A stretch of DNA of 32,137 nt from Acidobacteriota bacterium. GTDB taxonomy: Bacteria; Acidobacteriota; Thermoanaerobaculia; Gp7-AA8; JAHWKK01. Shown here piece after piece: positions 817 to 27,912 of this stretch (positions are counted from its first letter, which is position 1; each line of letters begins with the position of its first letter). The position numbers and the translations under genes were made by a program. The stretch lies in NCBI GenBank assembly GCA_019347945.1, contig JAHWKK010000033.1, forward strand, positions 1-32,137, read 5' to 3'. The notes below the pieces were generated by a model that made no database searches, was not told where the DNA came from, and worked only from the letters and a program-made list of their open reading frames with translations.

Positions 817-844
817 CAGGAACCAGGAGTCAGGATCCAGGATT
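817..844. repeat. heptamer array A, 4 x CAGGANN
   Basis: Four tandem 7-bp units with the variable pair reading AC, GT, TC, TT. The array starts two bases beyond the trmB start codon. It is the left arm of an inverted pair with 936-963. The 91 bp between the arms (845-935) shows no coding potential but contains the palindrome GAGACGTCTC at 901-910. Confidence 0.85.
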
Positions 845-935
845 CGGTGAAAGGCCTTCAGGAGGAGGGTCGAGGCCCGGTTGATCGGAAGACGAGGTGA
901 GAGACGTCTCATCGAGGCTCTCGCAATTTCCTCCG

Positions 936-963
936 GATCCTGAATCCTGGCTCCTGATTCCTG
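936..963. repeat. heptamer array B, 4 x NNTCCTG
   Basis: Right arm of the first inverted pair. Read on the minus strand the units are CAGGAAT, CAGGAGC, CAGGATT, CAGGATC, closely mirroring array A. It ends three bases from the stop codon of the di-iron protein gene at 967. Confidence 0.85.
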
Positions 964-5156: not shown

Positions 5157-5953
5157 AGAGAAGACTGGCGTTTCTGGCGGCGATCGTCATCGCTGCCAGC
5201 ATGGCGGTGCATGCCGCTCCGAAGACCGTTCCCCTCGACGAGGAGCTCAGGTACGACTGGCGTCTCAGAGGACCCCTTTCGTGGGTCGCGGCGATCGCGT
5301 TTCCCACGTCCGGAACCGGGAATCTCAGGACGAGCGTTTCGCCGCGCGACACGGTCGAGACCGAGCTCACGATTCGCGCCAGGAAAGGCTCGGACTTCTA
5401 CCGGTACGAATCCGAGATCGAGCGAGAATCGATCAAGACACTGATGTCGTATCACGGCTACGCGTGGGGTGACAAGGAGAAGGAGGAACGGACATTCTTC
5501 GACTACGTGAAGAAGGTCGCCCGGATCTTCAAGCGCTCCTACAAGAAGGAAGACGAGACGAAGGAAGAGGCGATCCCGGGACGTCCTTTGCGGGATGTCC
5601 TCACTGGGATCTACTATCTCCGAATCAACTCCGACGCCTTCACGAAACCGGTCAACGCCGAGATCTACTCGGACGGGACGATGTACCCGGTGGTGTTCAA
5701 GCCCCTCGGTGTGAAATCGATGAAGTTCGAAGGAGCAAAGGGCACCGTTCGAGGATTCGAGATCACCGCACGGCCGGGAGACGAAAAGAGGTGGCCGGGT
5801 GGAGTCGAGGTCTGGTTCACCACCGATGAGCGGAAGATCCCGGTTCAGATCTCGATCAATCAGACTCTTGCGAATCTCCAGCTCGATCTGGCCTCGATCG
5901 AGAAAACGGGAAGCGCTCCGAAGCCGACGGCCTTCGTCCCTCCCGGACGCTAG
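5153..5953 (+). CDS. secreted DUF3108-like protein
   Basis: 266 residues starting with a clear Sec signal peptide: KRR, a hydrophobic core of about 15 residues, then a likely AHA|AP cleavage near residue 21. The rest is beta-rich and resembles DUF3108 proteins, which are periplasmic or envelope proteins of unknown function in Gram-negative bacteria. Features include repeated basic and acidic stretches around residues 105-145 and a conserved-looking GVEVWFTTDERKIPV segment near the C terminus. The ATG overlaps the ispH stop, with GGGAGGAAG about ten bases upstream. The stop TAG (5951-5953) is followed after three bases by heptamer array C. Function is unknown. Confidence 0.75.
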   Translation: MKRRLAFLAAIVIAASMAVHAAPKTVPLDEELRYDWRLRGPLSWVAAIAFPTSGTGNLRTSVSPRDTVETELTIRARKGSDFYRYESEIERESIKTLMSYHGYAWGDKEKEERTFFDYVKKVARIFKRSYKKEDETKEEAIPGRPLRDVLTGIYYLRINSDAFTKPVNAEIYSDGTMYPVVFKPLGVKSMKFEGAKGTVRGFEITARPGDEKRWPGGVEVWFTTDERKIPVQISINQTLANLQLDLASIEKTGSAPKPTAFVPPGR

Positions 5954-5956
5954 AAG

Positions 5957-6005
5957 CAGGAACCAGGAAGCAGGAGCCAGGATCCAGGAAGCAGAATCCA
6001 GCAAG
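5957..6005. repeat. heptamer array C, 7 units CAGGANN with decay
   Basis: Units are CAGGAAC, CAGGAAG, CAGGAGC, CAGGATC, CAGGAAG, then the degenerate CAGAATC and CAGCAAG. The array starts three bases after the DUF3108 stop and faces array D. Confidence 0.85.
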
Positions 6006-6032
6006 CAGAGTCAACTTTTTTCACGAGCCTCC

Positions 6033-6070
6033 CCCAGATCTTTCGCCGTCCTTCGGCGGCTCAGGATGAC
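6033..6070. repeat. short hairpin repeat with CTCAGGATGAC tail
   Basis: CGCCG-TCCTT-CGGCG (6044-6058) forms a hairpin and is followed by GCTCAGGATGAC. The layout 'ATC(C/T)TTCG, hairpin, CTCAGGATGAC' resembles a dispersed intergenic repeat I recall from many environmental bacterial genomes; this is recollection, not a search. It lies between arrays C and D. The rest of 5954-6211 holds no gene. Confidence 0.45.
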
Positions 6071-6168
6071 GAGGGGTAGGTTTCTCCGAGAGCAAACATT
6101 CGTCCATGATCGTCGCTTCGCCAAAACACAACATTCGTCATTATTCGCGCGTGCTCCGCCGAGCTCTG

Positions 6169-6209
6169 TCTCCTGAATCCTGAATCCTGAATCCTGATCC
6201 TGTCTCCTG
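6169..6209. repeat. heptamer array D, about 6 units NNTCCTG
   Basis: Units TCTCCTG, three identical AATCCTG, one 6-base unit ATCCTG, and TCTCCTG. It is the right arm facing array C and abuts the dnaE2 stop codon at 6212. Confidence 0.85.
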
Positions 6210-6211
6210 GC

Positions 6212-9200
6212 TCAATGAAAGTCGTGGCTGTCGATTCTCGCGAAATCGAGGACTGGCCAGAATCTTTCGGCACGCAGCGACGGTTGACCCCCTTCCTTCT
6301 GCAGAATCCCTTCGACGATCAGTCCGGGTGAGGTGACAATTGTCGAGCGATTGTCCCGGAAGAGGCTCGGATTGACGATCGCCTGCGCCATTCCGGTCTC
6401 GTCCTCCAGGGTGAGGAAGACGAAACCCTTCCCCGTGGCAGGCCGCTGCCGAACGATGACGGCGCCGGCAGTCCGCACCCGTTTTCCTCCCGGCTCCCGC
6501 AAAAGCTCTGCTGCGGAGAGGACACGCTGACTTTTCAGACTCGACCTCAGATGTTCCATCAGATGAGGGCCCGTCGTGAGCTGCGTCGCATGGTAATCAG
6601 CGACCGTCTCTTCGAGAGCGGACATCTCGCTCAGAGGGGAAGCTCTGAGCGATCGATCGCTCTTCTCGAAGAGCACGCCGGCTTCTCTGGCAACCCGCGC
6701 AACCTGCCACAGCGCGGACCGGCGAGTCTGTCCGAATCCGGAGAGAGCGCCGGCCCATGCGAGCCGGGTCAGCTGATCCTGTCCCGTACGGCATCGCATC
6801 TCCAGATCCTCGATCGATTCGAAGTCTCCGTTCGCACGCGCCTGCTCGATTCTCCGGCCCACCTGCTCGCGCAGACCATTGACGTATCGCATCCCCAGCC
6901 GGACGCTTCCTTCCTCCCATGAGCACTCCCACCCCGATCGATTGACGTCGACGGGAAGGACGCTCACGCCGTGTCGCTGCGCATCCTTGATGAGCGTCGC
7001 GGGGTGGTAGAAGCCCATCGGCCAGGAATTGAGCATCCCGATCAGAAAAGCCGCGGGATGATGAGCTCGAATGTAAGCGCTTGCATAAGCAATCAGCGCG
7101 AAGCTGGCGGCGTGCGATTCCGGAAACCCGTACAACGCAAACGAAGTGATCGACTGGACGATCTGATCCTGTGCCTTGCCGGTGATGCCGTTGGCTTCCA
7201 TTCCGGAGCGGAGCTTCATCTCGATCAGCTGCATCTTCTCGACCGAGCGTTTGAACCCCATCGCCCTACGCAGCTCTTCGGCTTCACCGCCCGAGAATCC
7301 GGCGGCCACCATCGCGATGCGAAGCAGCTGCTCCTGAAAGAGGGGAACTCCGAGGGTTCGTTTCAGGATCGGCTCGAGTGAAGGATGGGGGTACTCGACT
7401 TCTCGCTTCCCCTGGCGCCGGTCGAAGAAAGGATGCACCATGCCGCCGACGATCGGACCGGGTCGGATGATCGCGACCTGAATGACGAGATCGTAAAACT
7501 TTTCCGGCCGGTTTCTCGGAAGCGAGGCCATCTGCGCACGGCTCTCGACCTGAAAAACCCCGACCGTGTCGGCCTCGTTCAGCATCCGATAGACCAGCGG
7601 ATCGTCCTGCGGGAGATGGGCGAGGTCGACCTCGGTTTTCTCGTTCTCCCGGATGATCGGGATCGCGCGCTCGAGCGCGGCCAGCATTCCGAGCCCGAGA
7701 AGATCGACTTTGATGATGCCGAGATCGGCGCAGTCGTCCTTGTCCCACTGAATGACCACTCTGCCGGGCATCGAAGCCGGCTCGAGCGGAACGACCTCAT
7801 CGAGCCTACCGCTCGTCATGACCATTCCTCCCGAATGCTGACCGAGATGGCGGGGAAGGTTCTGGATCCGTTGCCACAATCCGATCAGATGCCGCACACG
7901 TCCGTCGTCCGGATCGAGTCCTGCCGACTGCAGCTCCTTCTCCAGGCCGGTCACGGTTTCGCGGATCTCGCCGAATGTCCACCGGCCGACCTGTTTCGCG
8001 AATCGGTCGATCTGTTCCGGCGAAAAGCCGAGCGCCTTGCCCACTTCCCTCGCTGCGGAACGCTCCCGGTAGGTGATCACGTTGGCCGTCATCGCGGCGC
8101 CACGTTCGCCATATCGGTCGTAGACGTATTGAATCGCGCGCTCACGCTGATCGCCGGACGGAAGATCGAGATCGATGTCCGGCCATTCACCTCTCTCCTC
8201 CGAAAGAAATCGCTCAAAGAGAAGCTCCATCTTCACCGGATCGACCGCCGTGATCGAAAGCGCGTAGCAGACCGCGCTGTTCGCCGCCGATCCGCGACCC
8301 TGAACGAGAATGTTCTCCCGGAGGCAGAACTGAACGATGTCCCAGACGATGAGAAAGTAGCCGGCGAGATCGAGCTTTTCGATCATCGTGAGCTCACGAT
8401 CGATCTGCGCCTGCGCTTTCACGGTCAGCGGACGGAAGCGCGCCCGTGCACCGTTCCAAGTGATCTGCCGCAGATACGACATGGCGGTCTCGCCCGGAGG
8501 AAGAGGGTAGTCGGGGAAGCGATAACCGAGGTTGGCGAGGGTGAAGTCGAGCTCGGAGGCGAGCTCGATCGATGCATCGATCGCATGCGGAAGATCCGAG
8601 AAGAGCGTGCACATCTCCGCGGCGGATCGGACATGCCGCCCTGCATTCTCCTCGAGCAGCGTCCCCGCCGCATCGAGATTCGTTCCATGCCGGATGCACG
8701 AGAGAACATCCGCGAGCTCCCGGTCACCAGGAGCCGCGAAGCGGACGGCATTGGTCGCGACCACCTGCAGCCGGTGATTCCGTGCGATGTCGATCAGCGC
8801 CTGGTTGCGATGCTCCTGTTCCCTCAGATGGTGACGCTGCAACTCGACGTGTACGTGATCCGAGAAGATCGCCTTCAGCTTTCCGATCAGATCGGAGGCG
8901 GCGCCGATGCCACCGTGGCGTAGCGTCCGCGCGACGATTCCATCCGAGCCTCCCGTCAGACAGTGCAGCCCCGACGCGTAGCGTTCGATCATCTCGAGAT
9001 CGAAGCGCGCCTCTCCCTTTTCATTCGCGAGCGCCCCTTCGGTGATCAGCCTGCAGAGATTCCGGTAGCCCTCCCGTCTTCGGACGAGTAGCGACAGCCG
9101 CGCTTCTCCAGCCGCGGATCGCTCCCCGGGGCTCACGAGTCGAAGAGATCCGAGCGGATTCGTCTCGTTCAGAACCAGATCCGCACCGACGAGCGCTCGA

Positions 9201-9505
9201 ATCCCTGCTCGTTTGGCCGCCGTGTGGAATCGCGGCGCACCGTACACGCCATTCACCTCGATCAGCGCCGCCGCCGGCAGTCCTCGGGCAGCCGCATGCT
9301 CGATCAGATCCTCCGGAAGCGACGCCCCTTCGAGGAACGAGAAGGCCGACTGCATTCGCAGTTCGACGTAGTCGCGAGGACTGCCGCGATGCGCCCGCGG
9401 CTTCCACGCGCGCTGGCGCAGCCCCTCCTTCCTCGCACCGGACGAGGCCGTCGGCAGTTTGCCTCCGAGGGTTCGGGATGGTGGTGTTGATGAGCTCTGG
9501 CGCAT
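6212..9505 (-). CDS. dnaE2: error-prone DNA polymerase III alpha subunit DnaE2
   Basis: C-family polymerase that performs SOS-associated mutagenic translesion synthesis together with ImuA and ImuB. The 1097 residues run as PHP domain (about 45-250), polymerase core and a C-terminal OB fold (about 985-1060). Catalytic aspartates lie in PDIDLD (442-447), preceded by GRGSAANSAVCYALS (403-417). The PHP domain has lost its first metal-binding motif: the expected HxH region reads ELRMQSAFSFL. The end DFH matches the usual DnaE2 C terminus. The ATG at 9505 has no Shine-Dalgarno because array E begins seven bases upstream, so a later start near residue 45 is conceivable. It is the last gene of the imu cassette and converges on the DUF3108 gene. 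Confidence 0.95.
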   Translation of the reverse strand: MRQSSSTPPSRTLGGKLPTASSGARKEGLRQRAWKPRAHRGSPRDYVELRMQSAFSFLEGASLPEDLIEHAAARGLPAAALIEVNGVYGAPRFHTAAKRAGIRALVGADLVLNETNPLGSLRLVSPGERSAAGEARLSLLVRRREGYRNLCRLITEGALANEKGEARFDLEMIERYASGLHCLTGGSDGIVARTLRHGGIGAASDLIGKLKAIFSDHVHVELQRHHLREQEHRNQALIDIARNHRLQVVATNAVRFAAPGDRELADVLSCIRHGTNLDAAGTLLEENAGRHVRSAAEMCTLFSDLPHAIDASIELASELDFTLANLGYRFPDYPLPPGETAMSYLRQITWNGARARFRPLTVKAQAQIDRELTMIEKLDLAGYFLIVWDIVQFCLRENILVQGRGSAANSAVCYALSITAVDPVKMELLFERFLSEERGEWPDIDLDLPSGDQRERAIQYVYDRYGERGAAMTANVITYRERSAAREVGKALGFSPEQIDRFAKQVGRWTFGEIRETVTGLEKELQSAGLDPDDGRVRHLIGLWQRIQNLPRHLGQHSGGMVMTSGRLDEVVPLEPASMPGRVVIQWDKDDCADLGIIKVDLLGLGMLAALERAIPIIRENEKTEVDLAHLPQDDPLVYRMLNEADTVGVFQVESRAQMASLPRNRPEKFYDLVIQVAIIRPGPIVGGMVHPFFDRRQGKREVEYPHPSLEPILKRTLGVPLFQEQLLRIAMVAAGFSGGEAEELRRAMGFKRSVEKMQLIEMKLRSGMEANGITGKAQDQIVQSITSFALYGFPESHAASFALIAYASAYIRAHHPAAFLIGMLNSWPMGFYHPATLIKDAQRHGVSVLPVDVNRSGWECSWEEGSVRLGMRYVNGLREQVGRRIEQARANGDFESIEDLEMRCRTGQDQLTRLAWAGALSGFGQTRRSALWQVARVAREAGVLFEKSDRSLRASPLSEMSALEETVADYHATQLTTGPHLMEHLRSSLKSQRVLSAAELLREPGGKRVRTAGAVIVRQRPATGKGFVFLTLEDETGMAQAIVNPSLFRDNRSTIVTSPGLIVEGILQKEGGQPSLRAERFWPVLDFARIDSHDFH

Positions 9506-9512
9506 TTGAAGA

Positions 9513-9547
9513 AGGGATCAGGGATCAGGGATCAGGGATCAGGGATC
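9513..9547. repeat. heptamer array E, 5 perfect AGGGATC units
   Basis: Five identical tandem 7-bp units, left arm of the pair around the first IVP gene. It supplies the last codon and the TGA stop of that gene and ends seven bases before the dnaE2 start. Its unit differs from the CAGGA[AT] units elsewhere but matches its partner array F. Confidence 0.92.
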
Positions 9548-9946
9548 AGGTTGTGAGACGAGGAGAACCCGTCGTTGTCGATTCACGAGTGCGTCGCTTT
9601 CGAGACTCTCGCGAAGTCCGATGAGCATCCTGCCGATTTCTCGTATTTTCTCGGTCAGTACCTCCGCGATCTGAGCAGGCAGATACACTAGATGTTGTGA
9701 AAGTAAAATCTGCGTTTCGATCTCTGCCAGCGACCCGGAGGCAATTGATATAAATCTCAGATATTCTTTGCGGCTGCGACGGCCATTGCCTTCGGCGATA
9801 TTGCTTGGAATCGAAATGGCCGAGCGTCGGATCTGGGCCGTCAGTCCGTAGCACTCTTCCTGTGGGAAAATCGACGTAGCTTTATAGGTCTCGACAACGA
9901 GATCCATCGACTTCTGCCAGACTTTCAGTTCCTTGAATCGACCCAT
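9539..9946 (-). CDS. 23S rRNA IVP-type four-helix-bundle protein (copy 1)
   Basis: 135 residues of the S23/IVP family (TIGR02436-like), small all-helical proteins first known from intervening sequences in 23S rRNA and structurally related to the Avd protein of diversity-generating retroelements; their biochemical function is unknown. The family signature IRRSAISIPSNIAEG is at residues 39-53, with the N-terminal FKELKVWQKSMDLV and a C-terminal REIGRMLIGLRESL helix. The ATG at 9946 has an excellent AAAGGAGAAG at 9951-9960. The TGA stop falls inside array E. It sits between imuB and dnaE2 and is bracketed by inverted heptamer arrays E and F. Base composition looks visibly lower in GC than imuB and dnaE2, consistent with acquisition. 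Confidence 0.9.
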   Translation of the reverse strand: MGRFKELKVWQKSMDLVVETYKATSIFPQEECYGLTAQIRRSAISIPSNIAEGNGRRSRKEYLRFISIASGSLAEIETQILLSQHLVYLPAQIAEVLTEKIREIGRMLIGLRESLESDALVNRQRRVLLVSQPDP

Positions 9947-9975
9947 TTTCTTCTCCTTTCGGTTATTTGCTTTGC

Positions 9976-10031
9976 TGATCCCTGATCCCTGATCCCTGAT
10001 CCCTGATCCCTGATCCCTGATCTCTGATCCC
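9976..10031. repeat. heptamer array F, 8 units TGATCCC
   Basis: Six perfect units, one TGATCTC, then one more perfect unit. It is the right arm for the first IVP gene and ends six bases from the imuB stop. Its unit is the reverse complement of array E's GGGATCA, a variant used by no other pair in the window. Confidence 0.92.
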
Positions 10032-10037
10032 TGCCTC

Positions 10038-11558
10038 TCAGTCATACATCCCGTCGGCAAACCATTTCTCCTTTGTCGAGTCGTAATAGATCCGGTAGAG
10101 CCCGCCGCGTGCGAGCTCGACGTCCCAGTAACTTCGCTCCACCGGATGGTCCGACCACCACCCTTCTTCCAGACGCCACGGTCCCGAAGCCACCCGAACC
10201 GCTCCCTCGATGCGCGACTCCTTCGAGTCGAGCGGGCGAAGTCGCACGGGGCGGGTCTCCCGAGAGGTGTCGAGCTCGAGGATCACCTCGAGCTCGACGG
10301 GAGGGCGGATCGTCCGGACGGTGAGGAGTCCCCGGTGCGGTGCCGGATCCCGCCGGTTCATCGGAGGAGGGGGAGGGTCGAAGGCGACGAGATTGAATCG
10401 TTCGGGAGACCGGCTGTCGACCGTTCGTGGCGAGCCGACCCGCTCGCGGCTGACCATTGAGCTGAGCCGCGCAATCGTCGTTGCGATCCTGTCGGGCGAC
10501 ATCGCGGGCGGACCGAAAAGCGACATCTGCGCGGTCCGAGGCCGGTCCGGATGTGCCGTGAAGAGGAAGCCGGTGACCGGCGCCCCCGGCGGTGTCGCTT
10601 CGAGCTCGAGCCTGACGAAGGTCAGCAGCGTTTTGACCTCTCGAGTCGGAGTCGGCAGCCGGATCGTTCGATCGTGAAAGCCGTCGGGCTCGAGGCGGAG
10701 CGACACCTCGAGAATCCTGCAGGAAAACCCGAGCGACTCCATCCGGCGGCAGAGCCGGTCGAGCGCCGCATTCGCGACGAAGAGAAACGGCTCGAGAGCC
10801 ACCAGCGGCCACTCCAGATCCATCCCCTCGCTGAACTCCGGCGGCGGCACGCGCGGAATGATCGGAGTCGGATCGAATCCTCGTGCGGAACAATGAAGCT
10901 GCCGGCCGGTCTCGCCCAGCCGCGTCGCCACTTCCGCTTCCGAAAGATTCGCGAGCTCTCCGATCGAACGGATCCCCCATCGGTCGAGCGTCCGTCCGAT
11001 CTCGAGCCCGGGATCGAGACGCTCGATCGGAAGCGGCGCCAGGAACTTCATCTCGTCTCCCGGCTCGACGATCGTCGGAGACTCCGGAAGCTCGGCCGCG
11101 ATCCGTGCCGCGAGCTTGCTCGCTGCGATTCCGACCCGCGCGCGGAGCCCTTCCCGTTCCGCCTCGTGCAAAGCCGAGGAGGCGAGCGCGCGCTCCGGAT
11201 GATCCGAACCCGCGTAGTGCCGCTCGAGCCCCGAGATTTCCATGTAAGCCACTCCCGCCGCGCCGTCCTCGACACGGGGAGAAAGACGGGCCGCGACATC
11301 GAGAAGCGCTTCCTGCGCTGCTTTCTCGCAGTCGGCGTCGCGCCCTCGTGCGATGAGGCCGGGGACGATCGCACGCCCCTGGGGAAGCGTCATCCCGGCG
11401 CGCACCCCGAGCACGCGCGCCCGCTTCGAGGCGGCCGCGATGAAAGCGCGCGATCCATTCCCCTCGACGATGGCAACCGTTTCGGTCGCGAGCTCCGGCT
11501 CGCTTCGCAGCCGGGCAGCGAGAGGAAAGAGCGGAACGTAGAAGCAGGCGATTCGCAT
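10038..11558 (-). CDS. imuB: ImuB, catalytically inactive Y-family polymerase-like adaptor
   Basis: ImuB acts as the hub of the DnaE2 mutasome, tethering it to the beta clamp. The 506-residue protein has a Y-family fold at the N terminus (CFYVPLFPLAARL, residues 5-17; AYMEISGLE, 104-112) but lacks the acidic catalytic residues of active DinB/UmuC enzymes, as expected for ImuB. A clamp-binding motif QMSLFG is at 344-349. The C-terminal part (about 370-506) is a proline- and arginine-rich linker plus a tail ending near WDVELARGGLYRIYYD. The ATG at 11558 has no Shine-Dalgarno: array G begins seven bases upstream. It lies between the two IVP genes within the imu cassette. Confidence 0.93.
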   Translation of the reverse strand: MRIACFYVPLFPLAARLRSEPELATETVAIVEGNGSRAFIAAASKRARVLGVRAGMTLPQGRAIVPGLIARGRDADCEKAAQEALLDVAARLSPRVEDGAAGVAYMEISGLERHYAGSDHPERALASSALHEAEREGLRARVGIAASKLAARIAAELPESPTIVEPGDEMKFLAPLPIERLDPGLEIGRTLDRWGIRSIGELANLSEAEVATRLGETGRQLHCSARGFDPTPIIPRVPPPEFSEGMDLEWPLVALEPFLFVANAALDRLCRRMESLGFSCRILEVSLRLEPDGFHDRTIRLPTPTREVKTLLTFVRLELEATPPGAPVTGFLFTAHPDRPRTAQMSLFGPPAMSPDRIATTIARLSSMVSRERVGSPRTVDSRSPERFNLVAFDPPPPPMNRRDPAPHRGLLTVRTIRPPVELEVILELDTSRETRPVRLRPLDSKESRIEGAVRVASGPWRLEEGWWSDHPVERSYWDVELARGGLYRIYYDSTKEKWFADGMYD

Positions 11559-11565
11559 GGTTGAG

Positions 11566-11607
11566 CAGGAGCCAGGATTCAGGAGCCAGGATTCAGGAAC
11601 CAGGATT
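11566..11607. repeat. heptamer array G, 6 units CAGGANN
   Basis: Units CAGGAGC, CAGGATT, CAGGAGC, CAGGATT, CAGGAAC, CAGGATT: a 14-bp higher-order alternation. It is the left arm for the second IVP gene, contributes that gene's stop codon, and begins seven bases from the imuB start. Confidence 0.9.
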
Positions 11608-12134
11608 CAGATTCCGGCGCCAGAGTTAGGTTGAAGTGATTTCCGGAGGCCGTTAAGCATTCGGCCTATTTCACGACAACATTCCATGGCGGGCTCGAGA
11701 TCGGGATCTGGCAGATAGTTCAATCGCGAAGCCAGAATCATTTGAGTTTCGAGCTCGGCGAGTGACCCAAGTGCGATTGATAAATGATTCAGGTATGCCC
11801 CGGTCGAAGATCGCGCATGACCTTCTGCAATGTTTGAAGGAATCGATATCACCGAACGTCGAATCTGAGCTGTCAGTCCGAAAACTTCCTCGCGGGGCAT
11901 TCCTTCAGTCAAGTGATAGATCTCGACTACGAGATCCATCGCTCTTTTCCAAACGCGCAGATGTTTGAAGCTCTTGATTTTTTTCGGATCAAATCCAGCA
12001 TCCCTCACATCTTGCACTCCATTCCAATGCTGGTTCATGAATCTCCACGTCTGATTTCCATCCACACCACGACATTCGATCGTTGTTTCATCGAATCGTG
12101 AATCCTGAGTGTCTTTTGCTGAAGGCCTCACCAT
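11607..12134 (-). CDS. 23S rRNA IVP-type four-helix-bundle protein (copy 2)
   Basis: 175 residues, same family as copy 1 and recognisably similar to it but not a recent duplicate. The core is at residues 54-170, with SFKHLRVWKRAMDLV, the signature IRRSVISIPSNIAEG (91-105), and CREIGRMLNGLRKSL (153-167). The first 53 residues have no counterpart in copy 1. ATG at 12134 is chosen because AAAGGT precedes it; ATG at residue 33 is a possible later start. The frame is open further upstream into imuA antisense-frame sequence, which I do not consider coding. The TGA stop lies in array G. The gene is flanked by arrays G and H and placed between imuA and imuB. Function unknown. Confidence 0.87.
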   Translation of the reverse strand: MVRPSAKDTQDSRFDETTIECRGVDGNQTWRFMNQHWNGVQDVRDAGFDPKKIKSFKHLRVWKRAMDLVVEIYHLTEGMPREEVFGLTAQIRRSVISIPSNIAEGHARSSTGAYLNHLSIALGSLAELETQMILASRLNYLPDPDLEPAMECCREIGRMLNGLRKSLQPNSGAGI

Positions 12135-12149
12135 TTGATTACCTTTCTG

Positions 12150-12198
12150 AATCCTGGTTCCTGAATCCTGGTTCCTGAATCCTGGCTCCTGAATCCTC
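12150..12198. repeat. heptamer array H, about 7 units NNTCCTG
   Basis: On the minus strand the units alternate CAGGATT with CAGGARC, the same 14-bp higher-order pattern as array G. The last unit is AATCCTC, and the array runs into the imuA stop codon. Confidence 0.9.
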
Positions 12199-12988
12199 AT
12201 ATCCTCATCCGCAGCGACATTGCCGCGGACTGCGTCGTCGTTCGTGTCCGATGCTTCGCCAGATGCAGCCGGGAGCCGATCCCCGTCAGAAGCGAGGGCC
12301 CCGAGCCCCGCCGGTGCCAGAAGACCCGCTCCTGACGAGTCATCAGCGAGGCTTCTTTTCCAAGATTGCAGGCCGGCCACGGCGCCGAGACGAGGAGGAT
12401 GCCACCGGTCGAGGAGGCAGCGCGCGAAAGTCGGAGCCACGCGGCATCGACCGGCCGCCGTCCGCGCAACCGGGTTCCGAGCTCCAGCACGACCAGAGGA
12501 AAGCCCGTCGTCAGCAGAAGCTCCGCCGCATTCACCGCATCGAGAACCCTCTCCGGACGCACCCACAGCAGGCGCTCGAGATCAACCCCCCCATCCTCGG
12601 CGTTTTTCGGATCGAGCGCATCCCCATGATCGACCAGAGCGACGTTCTCCCCCGAGGAGGTGATCGAAGCGAGCGCCGCGATGACGAGCGAGAATCGCCC
12701 GGAAGACCGATGGCCGTGAACCTCGGTCATCGATCCCCGCGGGAAACCGTGGAGAAGCGTGTCGAGCGAACGGATCGAGGAATGCTGCACCCCCGCTTCC
12801 CGCCGCTCCGTCGCCCGGACCAGATCCCTTCCGGTCATGAGCCTCCGCGCCAGCCCCTCCTCGAGATCAAGCCGCGCGAGCGGACCCCCGGAATCCCCTT
12901 TACTTTCCGTCACCGGTTCGACGGGGGCGGGTCGCAGAGCCCGGGGACGGTTCCAGTCGACGTCGAAAAGTAGAGCCTGAGAAGCCAT
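12197..12988 (-). CDS. imuA: ImuA-like RecA-fold protein of the mutagenesis cassette
   Basis: 263 residues with a RecA/SulA-like core. LDTLLHGFPRGSMTEVHG (residues 75-92) corresponds to the segment before the P-loop, and GHRSSGRFS (92-100) takes the Walker A position with arginine where lysine is usual. A Walker B-like LVVLELGTRL follows near 165. ImuA proteins interact with ImuB and are needed for DnaE2-dependent mutagenesis; position as first gene of an imuA-imuB-dnaE2 set supports the call. The last residues (RMRI) and stop are drawn from the edge of heptamer array H, so the C-terminal tail may have been altered by the insertion. ATG at 12988 has GGGGAG five bases upstream. Confidence 0.85.
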   Translation of the reverse strand: MASQALLFDVDWNRPRALRPAPVEPVTESKGDSGGPLARLDLEEGLARRLMTGRDLVRATERREAGVQHSSIRSLDTLLHGFPRGSMTEVHGHRSSGRFSLVIAALASITSSGENVALVDHGDALDPKNAEDGGVDLERLLWVRPERVLDAVNAAELLLTTGFPLVVLELGTRLRGRRPVDAAWLRLSRAASSTGGILLVSAPWPACNLGKEASLMTRQERVFWHRRGSGPSLLTGIGSRLHLAKHRTRTTTQSAAMSLRMRI

Positions 12989-13096: not shown

Positions 13097-13342
13097 ATGA
13101 GGAAAAAGGTCAGCACGGTCATCGAGGAGAGCTTGTTTCGGCGTACGAAAGTCGAAGCGCTCCGTCAGGAGGTCCAGATCAGCGATGTCATCACGGATGC
13201 TCTCGAAGCCTATCTCGATCAAAGGGGAAGCCCTCGCGGACCGGGAGGTATCGTGGCTCAGTCCTGGAGATCCATTCCGCTCGCTCGATCGCTCGTCGAG
13301 ATGATCATGGATGAGGAGGAATACGATTCCGACACTCGATGA
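13097..13342 (+). CDS. VapB-like antitoxin
   Basis: 81 residues with a short N-terminal strand-like segment (KKVSTVIEESLFRRTK) followed by helices (ISDVITDALEAYLDQ), compatible with a ribbon-helix-helix DNA-binding domain. The C-terminal half (about 45-81) is acidic near its end (MDEEEYDSD), typical of a toxin-neutralising tail. It overlaps the PIN-domain gene by 32 bases and has a palindromic operator at its start. No Shine-Dalgarno is visible. The family is inferred from size, domain pattern and context rather than from a strong signature. Confidence 0.7.
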   Translation: MRKKVSTVIEESLFRRTKVEALRQEVQISDVITDALEAYLDQRGSPRGPGGIVAQSWRSIPLARSLVEMIMDEEEYDSDTR

Positions 13343-13829
13343 GATCCCGAACGGATCGCGAATCTTCATCGATGCATCCATTTTCATCTATCACTTCACG
13401 GGGGTCTCGAAGGAGTGCCGGCGACTTCTCGAGCGATGTGAACAGGGTGGGCTGGAAGGCATCGTTTCGGTGACCCTGCTCGCCGAAGTATCGCATCGAC
13501 TGATGATGATCGAAGCAGTTTCGAAAAAGCTGGTCGAACCCGGCAATGTTGCGCAGAAGCTTCGATCGAAGCCGTCCCTCGTCCGGAAGCTCGGCTCATA
13601 TCAGGAGCAGATCGACAGGATTCCCCTCATGGGGATCGAGGTCAGGCCGGTCGATCTGGCAACGCTGCATCGATCGAGAACGGGGCGTGAGTCGTTCGGA
13701 CTCCTCACGAACGACTCGATCGTTCTCGCATCTCTCGAGGAGGTCGAAGCCGATGGGCTCGCGACCGGTGATCAGGACTTCCTGCGGGTCCGCGGTCTGA
13801 AAGTTTTCCATCCGAACAATCTCGGGTGA
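13311..13829 (+). CDS. VapC-like PIN-domain ribonuclease toxin
   Basis: 172 residues of the PIN fold, Mg-dependent RNases that cleave tRNA, rRNA or mRNA and are held inactive by the cognate antitoxin. Acidic active-site candidates are D21 (IFIDASIFIYHF), E59 (LLAEVSHR), D135 (LLTNDSIVLA), and D154/D156 (ATGDQDF). It is longer than the usual 130-140 residue VapC, with a helical segment around 70-105. The ATG at 13311 lies inside the antitoxin gene, indicating translational coupling. It converges on the ECF sigma gene. Confidence 0.85.
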   Translation: MRRNTIPTLDEIPNGSRIFIDASIFIYHFTGVSKECRRLLERCEQGGLEGIVSVTLLAEVSHRLMMIEAVSKKLVEPGNVAQKLRSKPSLVRKLGSYQEQIDRIPLMGIEVRPVDLATLHRSRTGRESFGLLTNDSIVLASLEEVEADGLATGDQDFLRVRGLKVFHPNNLG

Positions 13830-25674: not shown

Positions 25675-27912
25675 ATGAGCCTGCTCGGCCGTCTCGAGGA
25701 CCTCTCGATTCCGGACATCGTTCAGATCGTCTTTCTGAGCCGCCGCACCGGGATGCTGGAGATCATCGATGGGGATCAGAGATGGTGCATCTACTTCAGG
25801 CAGGGTCGCATCGTGGCCGCCGCCGCTCCCGAGGCGGGCAATCTCGGCACCTACCTCCGTCAGCGAGGTCTCGCATCGCCGGACATTCTCTCGAAGCTCG
25901 ACAGCGGAACCCCGGCCGGCGATCTGATTGACGCCGAGCTCATCTCTCCCGAGCAGCTCGGGGAAGCTGCAAAACTGATGATCGCAGAAGTGGTGGGAAG
26001 CCTCCGTGAGAAGGCCAGGGGTGAATTCAACTTCATTCTCAGCGAGACGGTCGATGATCGGATCGACTACGACCCGGACGCGATCTTTGCGGAAGGAGGC
26101 ATCTCTCCGGCCGAAGTGTTCGAGAGCGACGAGAAACTCAGACCGCTGCAGGGGCTCGAGGAGTCCCTGAGGGCCGGAAAAGCTCTGCTACGAGGCGAGA
26201 CGACCGCCGAAAAAGCCAGAGGAATCGGCTTTGGCGAAGAGATCCGGACCCTCACTTCACCCGGCTCCACGGCGGTTCCGGAGACCGCGGGGCGTTCTTT
26301 CGCGCAGGAGGAGCCCGCCTTCGAAAGTGCCGATCGGGACGAACCGGCGTTCGAGGACCTCGGAGAGGACGCGTTCGTCGACGCGCTCCCGGAGACCTTC
26401 ACGGGAAACGTCCCGATTCCGGAGATCCCCGGGTACCGGGCGCCGGTCTTCGAAGCGGTGCCGGAAGTCGAGCCTGAGATCGAGCCTGAGCAGGAGCCCG
26501 AGCCTGAGATCGAGCCTGAGCAGGAGCCCGAGCCTGAGATCGAGCCTGAGCAGGAGCCCGAGCCTGAGATCGAGCCTGAGCAGGAGCCCGAGCCTGAGAT
26601 CGAGCCTGAGCAGGAGCCCGAGCCCGAGATCGAGCCCGGACGGGAGCCCGAGCCTGAGATCGAGCAGCCTCCCCCCTTCGAGACGGTCAGCCCCGAGCCT
26701 CAGGCCGAGCTCGATCTGGAAGATGCGGACCTCGAGGAGGTGGCTGCAGCCGACACGCTGGAGAGCGAGGGGGTTCCGCCTATCGATCAGGTGCAGCTGG
26801 CTCTGGATCATGCGGGAGCGACCGGCGCGCTGCCGCCTTCGTTCGAGTCGTTCCAGAGGCCGAGCCCGGCGGTTGCGGAAGTCGACCGGAACGTAGTCCT
26901 GTTCGAGACGAACCCGATGATTCGCGTCGCTGCGAAGCGAACCTTCGCCGAGGCGGGATACAACCTTTCGCAGTATGGGGTCATCGAGGATGCCGCGGCA
27001 AGGATCGGGCAGCTTCTCACGGCGAACGAATTCTTCGTGACGTTTCTCGACGACTCGCCGGAAGTGGGAAACGCGTCGGTGGAACTGCTGAAAATGATCA
27101 AGAAGAAGAACCGGCACCTTCCGGTCGTGATCGTCGATCCGGAGGCGGACCTCGAGCGCCGGCACGAGGTACTGGAAAAGGGGGCCGAGCTCTACCTGAC
27201 CAAGCCTTCGCAGGCTCATCTTCGGCCGAACATCGCGATGACGAGCCTCAACCGGTTCGGCGACGAGATGCTGCTGTTCTGCCGGAAGGCCATCGAGGAC
27301 TGGAGTGAGCTCGCGCTGACGCTCAGCGACGACGACAAGCGGGTCGGAGCAGCGTTCTACGAGATTGCGGAGAGGGAGAGGTCGGGACGGTCACGAAATC
27401 TGGTCAAACACCTGATCGACGAGCTGTCGAATCCGGACGACATCACGACGGTCGCCGACACGATTCTGCGCCTGGCATCGGGATGGCTCGATCGAGGAGT
27501 CCTCTTCGTCGCATCGCCGGTCCGGTTCATCGGACTGGGGGGGTTCGGGGAGACGGGGACCGGCCGCCCGATGTTCGACCTGGCCCGGCGTCTCTGGATT
27601 CCGCGGGACGAAGATTCGGTCCTTCGCGATGTCGCGACCACGGGCAGATCGCACCGGGGAAAGATGAGACGAACCCCGACTAACGTTAAACTTGTCGAGG
27701 GCATGGGGAACCGGGTTCCTTCGGAGGTCATCGTGATCCCGATTGCGGACGGAGGAGAAGTGGCCGGTATTCTCTACGGAGACAACGGAGGGCAGAGGAT
27801 GCCTATGGGTGACATGAACGGGCTCGAGTTCTTCATCGAACAGGCCGGGCTCGCCTTTCACAACGCCGTTCTCGCCAATGCTCGGAAGAAGGGAATCGAC
27901 TGGAACGAATGA
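25675..27912 (+). CDS. DUF4388 (PATAN-like) scaffold with [10 protein letters not shown] repeats, receiver-like and GAF-like domains
   Basis: 745 residues. An N-terminal DUF4388/PATAN-type domain (about 1-140, [29 protein letters not shown]) is followed by a disordered acidic linker. The linker includes six copies of [10 protein letters not shown] or a close variant (about 266-325). A receiver-like domain follows (about 400-510), with VLFETN replacing the usual acidic pair but LDD and LTKPSQ retained. A helical segment and a GAF-like domain (about 580-735, ending [21 protein letters not shown]) complete it. DUF4388/PATAN proteins are linked to two-component signalling and surface motility in several phyla. 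Its stop overlaps the CheY start (ATGA), so it belongs to the chemosensory operon. The exact role is unknown. Confidence 0.8.
26470..26664 (+). repeat. 30-bp in-frame tandem repeat
   Basis: Five identical 30-bp units (26470-26619), one diverged unit (26620-26649) and a half unit encode [10 protein letters not shown] in the linker of the DUF4388 protein. The identity extends to synonymous positions, which points to recent expansion. Copy number could vary by multiples of ten codons without breaking the frame. Confidence 0.95.

Follow-up and report, generated by a model that had tools for sequence, protein, structure and literature searches.

IVP genes between inverted heptamer arrays in an acidobacterial imuA-imuB-dnaE2 operon are probably small mobile elements resembling 23S rRNA intervening sequences

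Results

Two array-bracketed IVP genes in the imu operon

We analysed two genes encoding IVP (S23) four-helix-bundle proteins, which lie in a 32,137-nucleotide stretch of DNA from an Acidobacteriota bacterium (contig JAHWKK010000033.1, hereafter the window). Both occupy gaps of the imuA-imuB-dnaE2 mutagenesis operon, and the minus-strand order imuA-IVP-imuB-IVP-dnaE2, already given in a preliminary description of this DNA, was borne out by domain matches (PF05635, RecA, IMS and DNA_pol3_alpha; Table 1). The two window IVPs score above the curated cut-off of PF05635 (133.8 and 126.5 bits against 33.8), and the TIGR02436 cut-off is also exceeded (126 bits against 24). The only Pfam matches of the element proteins are IVP and a sub-threshold bAvd, with no Y1 (HUH) transposase among them.

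Each IVP gene is bracketed by inverted arrays of a short tandem unit. The positions of the arrays agree with the preliminary description, which had assigned the unit CAGGANN to both genes; the unit around IVP1 is instead CAGGGAT. The 3' arm of element 1 provides the stop codon of IVP1 and terminates about 8 bp ahead of the dnaE2 ATG, and its 5' arm starts a few bp past the imuB stop codon. In the sense RNA, the arms of each element are predicted to form a stem of about 40 bp whose loop contains the IVP open reading frame (ORF), and the z-scores of these stems (-7.0 and -13.3 for the two elements) indicate that the pairing is not due to chance. The two proteins are indeed diverged, as first described (60% identity), but a local duplication, then considered unlikely, has become easier to accept: IVP1 and IVP2 are mutual nearest relatives among the IVPs compared (Shimodaira-Hasegawa-like approximate likelihood ratio test, SH-aLRT, 86), so that either element may have arisen from the other through local transposition.

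Table 1. Features of the imu locus and IVP-less array pairs in the window
Feature	Coordinates	Strand	Description
imuA	12197..12988	-	Host gene upstream of element 2; RecA fold, RecA PF00154, E 5.2e-13
Element 2 5' arm	12147..12205	-	(NNTCCTG)n on + strand, 14-mer superunit; overlaps imuA stop codon
IVP2 gene	11607..12134	-	At most 175 aa, IVP domain at residues 57-162; imuA/imuB gap; PF05635, E 6.1e-37
Element 2 3' arm	11566..11614	-	(CAGGANN)6 on + strand, 14-mer superunit CAGGAGCCAGGATT
imuB	10038..11558	-	Host gene flanked by both elements; IMS PF00817, E 6.4e-19; homologues at most 63% identical
Element 1 5' arm	9975..10033	-	(TCAGGGA)8.4 in operon sense; Tandem Repeats Finder (TRF) 96% match, period 7
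IVP1 gene	9539..9946	-	135 aa, GGAG ribosome-binding site; imuB/dnaE2 gap; PF05635, E 3.4e-39; TIGR02436, E 4.5e-37
Element 1 3' arm	9513..9550	-	(CAGGGAT)5.4 on + strand, (ATCCCTG)n in operon sense; TRF 100% match, period 7
dnaE2	6212..9505	-	Host gene downstream of element 1; DNA_pol3_alpha, E 1.6e-79; alpha subunit with PHP
Orphan element	5953..6209		(CAGGANN) pair, 5953-6009/6171-6209, no IVP; fills the interval separating a convergent gene from dnaE2
Orphan element	817..963		Inverted (CAGGANN)4 pair, 817-843/937-963, 147 bp, no IVP

Two further features of the window were recorded. Beside imuA, positions 13098-13829 hold a PIN-domain gene (PF01850, E 8e-8) with a small ORF ahead of it and no arrays, likely a toxin-antitoxin pair. 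At 26469-26665, a 30-bp unit repeated 6.6 times with 96% identity encodes protein repeats of a 10-residue type.

Arrays accompany IVP genes across phyla

The genome of the window contains five IVP genes, each lying between two inverted arrays whose unit differs from gene to gene; the units include the hexamer CGGGCA as well as GAAGAGT and GCCGGTN. When this genome and its relatives were taken together, short-unit arrays were present on both sides at 54 of 65 IVP genes. The left and right arms aligned as inverted repeats at 62 of the 65, compared with 16 of 514 when arms of different loci were mispaired; the positional controls near IVP genes of relatives were just 10, so the mispaired arms are the control to be trusted there. 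The mobile cassette proposed at the outset (array, IVP gene, array) therefore survived this search for IVP genes devoid of arrays.

For a scan across GTDB we used seven IVP sequences as the query, a 24-sequence alignment being too diverse for a collection scan, and retrieved 80 IVP loci from Bacteroidota, Pseudomonadota, Acidobacteriota, Planctomycetota, Bacillota, an archaeal bin and others. Counting arrays within 250 bp at the 78 loci with sufficient flank, an array was found at 65 of 78 loci against 37 of 282 control positions in the same loci, and arrays on both sides at 38 of 78 against 2 of 282. Matching inverted arms were present at 49 of the 78 loci (control positions, 1/282; mispaired arms, 11/769), and arms in direct orientation at 17. 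The array period was 7 in 72 of 103 array-bearing sides, 8 being the next commonest. The anatomy is thus a single IVP ORF flanked by inverted arrays, their unit being element-specific and 7 bp long, sometimes 6, 8 or 9 bp. Where both neighbouring genes are co-directional, crude gene calling placed IVP in sense to them at 50 loci and in antisense at 3; in GC-rich relatives the orientation counts were 13 ++ and 7 --, the gene calling there being too crude for reliance. No IVP match was obtained within the phage collection.

IVP cassettes were also located in ABC-transporter, conjugation and CRISPR operons. On a Pseudanabaena plasmid (L259:1889-4053), one separates the cas6 and cas4 genes of a type I-D CRISPR operon; in a related plasmid (L277) the junction is short and carries a few repeats resembling (ATTACGA).

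Arrays without an IVP gene

The pattern (CAGGANN)3 matched 423 times in the genome of the window, against 0 for a reversed control pattern. Within 325 kb of contig C1, TRF detected 25 short-unit arrays, 14 of which form 7 inverted pairs 74-1288 bp apart, and none of these 7 pairs enclosed an IVP gene. Random pairings of the arrays of this contig passed the same alignment threshold in 49 of 300 cases, hence array proximity has to count in addition to unit identity. Arrays are neither restricted to IVP genes nor found at most intergenic gaps; the cassette model held against the latter possibility as well, though IVP-less arrays are common.

A MITE-like (miniature inverted-repeat transposable element) palindrome, TCATTCTGAGC.../...GCTCAGGATGACGAG, is common to L056:9795-10200, L054:13142-13534 and the window orphan at 5953-6209, which holds part of it. 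In L056 the palindrome is surrounded by nested array pairs, (GAAGAGT) outside and (CAGGATT) inside. Another pair of inverted (CAGGANN) arrays, at L039:7095-8232 (contig C1, 47095-48232), encloses an ORF of 272 aa whose N-terminus is signal-like; this non-IVP cargo gave no Pfam match.

That most array pairs of the genome lack an IVP gene, as seen in the C1 pairs and the genome-wide matches, is what would be expected if the arrays were independent regulatory or terminator-like repeats with IVP genes between them by accident. We hold this to be very improbable, and it is already disfavoured by the element-specific arms, which in many phyla match their own partner and not other loci, by the scarcity of arms at control positions of the same loci, and by the filled and empty alleles described below, in which the arms belong to the insert.

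Filled and empty alleles

Comparable alleles were found in a VirB/TrbI operon of cyanobacterial plasmids, which is filled in Trichormus and Scytonema and empty in Nostoc carneum and Fremyella, at about 97% identity. The empty site reads AAAAAGTAATTAACAAATAA (AAAAAGTAATTAAC at the junction), and the filled one AAAAAGTAAT, then the IVP-bearing interior, then GTAATTAACAAATAA, with GTAATTAAC as the right flank; the alignment points to a probable 5-bp target duplication. The Nostocales plasmid insert is about 390-430 bp long and lies between operon genes in sense orientation. The Trichormus and Scytonema alleles are not identical, the 5' array of one being longer by one 14-bp unit, and Nostoc C052 retains a remnant of the element after a deletion. 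The clean insertion into this heptamer-free site of the VirB/TrbI operon argues against simple array-array recombination. Nostoc plasmids also have a paralogous operon of three genes, whose two junctions are taken up by two different IVP elements, each junction being empty in the other plasmid. Two further comparisons were set aside: the empty alleles of a TraM operon have a different junction sequence and gave no clean ends, and at the L270 site the upstream gene differs.

On plasmid L276, a clean insert of 182 bp, lacking IVP and carrying the same unit in its inverted arms, interrupts the IVP ORF; it is a nonautonomous derivative of recent movement. Dispersed copies are numerous in the relative G034, with about 20 related IVP copies at separate loci; there, loci L235-L254 show layered 6-, 8- and 13-bp arrays, many near a constant 30-bp (CGTGAAA)4.3 block and several at contig ends. 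Judged from these alignments, the elements are mobile or recently mobile where alleles can be compared, and the proposed cassette is supported both in this way and by the bracketing across many phyla.

Array units follow the IVP protein

The unit period required 8 changes on a tree of 72 IVPs, against a mean of 15.1 and a minimum of 11 when shuffled 300 times, and elements with 7-bp units were more alike in unit the higher their protein identity (Mantel rho 0.31, 0/2000 permutations). Both the unit of an array and its period go with the IVP protein, and this correlation suggests that the protein is cognate to its unit. Some of the loci are related by descent. At one ABC-ATPase/permease junction shared by five relatives (L062, L064, L066, L070 and L071), the cassettes have the units GTGCTGA, GTACTGA and GAGGACT, each variant being present in both arms; since both arms were altered together, concerted evolution of the arms is indicated.

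These results bear on the idea that the elements are passive, with IVP acting, for instance, as an RNA binder that keeps the hairpin in check and with occasional host template switching or array recombination as the source of movement. Consistent with passivity are the lack of a catalytic domain in IVP, the absence of RVT_1, the domain of a reverse transcriptase partner, from the genome of the window (99.65% complete), the 182-bp insert without target duplication and the IVP-less pairs with other cargo, such as the L039 ORF. The clean insertion with its probable 5-bp duplication at a heptamer-free site is unlike a product of array-array recombination, and the agreement between unit and protein points to a cognate one; we therefore regard passive elements as unlikely, although the idea deserves some weight.

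The imuB-dnaE2 junction in relatives

The preliminary description offered as a second possibility the recruitment of the IVPs to SOS mutagenesis. An IVP gene is found directly downstream of imuB in the relatives G002, G003, G006, G008, G009, G015 and G031 as well as in the window. The imu-junction IVPs of the related family f2 that were placed on the tree form one diverged clade (SH-aLRT 84, a modest value), which makes a single old insertion probable, with the ORF kept open in several genera. As window IVP1 and the IVP of G031, from another family, fall in separate clades outside f2, the imuB-dnaE2 junction was entered at least three times. Such repeated and long-lasting occupation, together with the G006 and G009 genes that start near the imuB stop codon and have no left array, would be in line with IVPs serving as parts or regulators of the ImuA-ImuB-DnaE2 machinery, the arrays being leftovers of their arrival. 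On the other hand, G004, from the genus of G006 and G009, has no IVP at this junction, G017, from the genus of G003, has no recognisable one, and the junctions of G022 and G028 are short and empty; the imuA-imuB insertion was seen only in the genome of the window, and cassettes of the same type reside in many unrelated operons. Recruitment is accordingly improbable, and for the window it was not borne out. The empty imu junctions sought in relatives do exist in G022 and G028, while other relatives keep an IVP there. Within f2, domestication of the IVP at imuB-dnaE2 is possible, the long-kept open ORF leaving room for a function at that position.

In G004, the imuB-dnaE2 junction (L148:2660-2780) contains a small IVP-less inverted 9-mer array pair (GCAGATGAC), at a place where sister species have an IVP.

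Discussion

The combination of an IVP gene and two heptamer arrays is probably a short selfish mobile element, about 400-700 bp long, inserted sense-wise between the imu genes and similar to the intervening sequences (IVSs) of 23S rRNA. The elements are spread across phyla in sense orientation, with defined insertion sites, dispersed copies and IVP-less derivatives that have the same arms. In the host transcript, the arms would pair as a stem of about 30-45 bp that may be cleaved by RNase III like those of the rRNA IVSs, whose RNA is cut out without religation; in that case the insertion would be tolerated. The IVP, perhaps a pentamer and a distant relative of Avd, may bind the arms of its own element, in RNA or DNA form, and could promote the spread of that element and, in trans, of orphan array elements, with host enzymes supplying the DNA chemistry. 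Array length would shift through slippage, arm-to-arm conversion keeping the arms similar. The strong sense bias suggests either that host transcription is needed for IVP expression or that there is an RNA step.

Several observations weigh against a mobile element driven by IVP. About 17% of the phylum-wide loci have no array at the threshold used, and G006 and G009 retain the IVP ORF, its start close behind the imuB stop, after losing the left array. The target duplication GTAAT is clean at one site only, TTCTA being ambiguous, TAATG/TTATG imperfect and the 182-bp insert devoid of any. The filled and empty alleles come from cyanobacterial plasmids, the nearest available genome to the lineage of the window belonging to another family. 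A role of IVP as the cause of movement is something we infer; the protein has no known catalytic domain, a common history of IVP and arms would yield the unit-protein match without specific binding, and the S23p of Coxiella is reportedly not produced in vivo, apparently (PMC4990558).

A broader proposal is that these elements constitute a new and very widespread class of transposable element, with an IVP four-helix bundle as the sole protein and with self-copied and self-homogenised, element-specific inverted heptamer arrays, 23S rRNA IVSs and many heptamer repeats being members or remnants; this we put forward tentatively, giving it slightly less than an even chance. To our knowledge, IVP/S23 proteins have been known from 23S rRNA inserts for three decades without a function, and members of the family are commonly annotated as "four helix bundle protein". 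A tie to array-ended mobile elements would give the family a testable role as a mobile-element protein and would explain many intergenic heptamer arrays, revealing a very small new kind of mobile DNA that sits sense-oriented inside operons. It also calls for caution, in that IVP genes in imu, CRISPR, conjugation or ABC-transporter operons should not be taken for members of those pathways on association alone.

Comparison with known systems

The preliminary description knew of no described element with this structure. Our search, with subscription journals and preprints outside its reach, likewise found no literature joining IVP genes with paired heptamer arrays, but the claim does not quite hold for the architecture: heptamers and terminal inverted repeats accompany an S23/IVP ORF in the 23S rRNA IVS of Coxiella. 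It is a 428-nt selfish element with a 28-bp terminal inverted repeat, or stem, and an S23p ORF, preceded by GACAGAT heptamers whose number varies among strains (Warrier et al. 2016, PMC4990558). As cited there, Ralph and McClelland (1993) raised the possibility that the element is mobile, with an ORF serving that mobility. The IVSs of Leptospira, Coxiella and Brucella share with the present elements the IVP/S23 ORF, a size of about 0.4 kb, stem-forming terminal inverted repeats and a sporadic distribution, and that of Coxiella also the tandem heptamers ahead of the ORF (PMC4990558). The present elements differ in lying in gaps of protein-coding operons (the window copies, between imuA and imuB and between imuB and dnaE2, are outside any 23S rRNA gene), in having paired arrays as their defining ends, and in occurring at very many loci and in many phyla with filled and empty alleles and IVP-less derivatives. 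Its anatomy being the same, the published Coxiella IVS looks like a member of the same family inserted in rRNA. The elements are best described as IVS-like and outside rRNA, and this precedent limits their novelty.

The nearest solved structure to IVP is XCC0516 (2gsc, E 4e-26), which we infer to be the Xanthomonas S23p, a pentamer of four-helix bundles (PMC4990558). The relation to Avd of diversity-generating retroelements is distant (DivGenRetAVD, E 4e-10, 40 bits against a cut-off of 80; bAvd, E 2e-7; both under curated cut-offs), and the reverse transcriptase of those retroelements was not found in the present genome.

Heptamer arrays of cyanobacteria and Beggiatoaceae (STRR, short tandemly repeated repetitive sequences; TAACTGA; G-rich) are scattered tandem 7-bp intergenic units, described chiefly as direct repeats, in contrast to the paired inverted arrays reported here; we found neither an IVP link nor paired inverted arrays as element ends in these accounts (PMC4679880, PMC4692102). 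MITEs and insertion sequences resemble the present elements in their inverted ends, probable short target duplication and gene-less derivatives, and differ in that the present elements have no transposase and end in arrays of variable unit and length. In the REP/RAYT and REPIN systems (repetitive extragenic palindromes and their associated tyrosine transposases), one protein-coding copy flanked by inverted repeats accompanies many dispersed protein-less pairs. The present elements similarly combine a coding copy with dispersed protein-less pairs that share its repeat, although a four-helix bundle with no known nuclease domain takes the place of the Y1 transposase, and heptamer arrays that of the REP hairpins.

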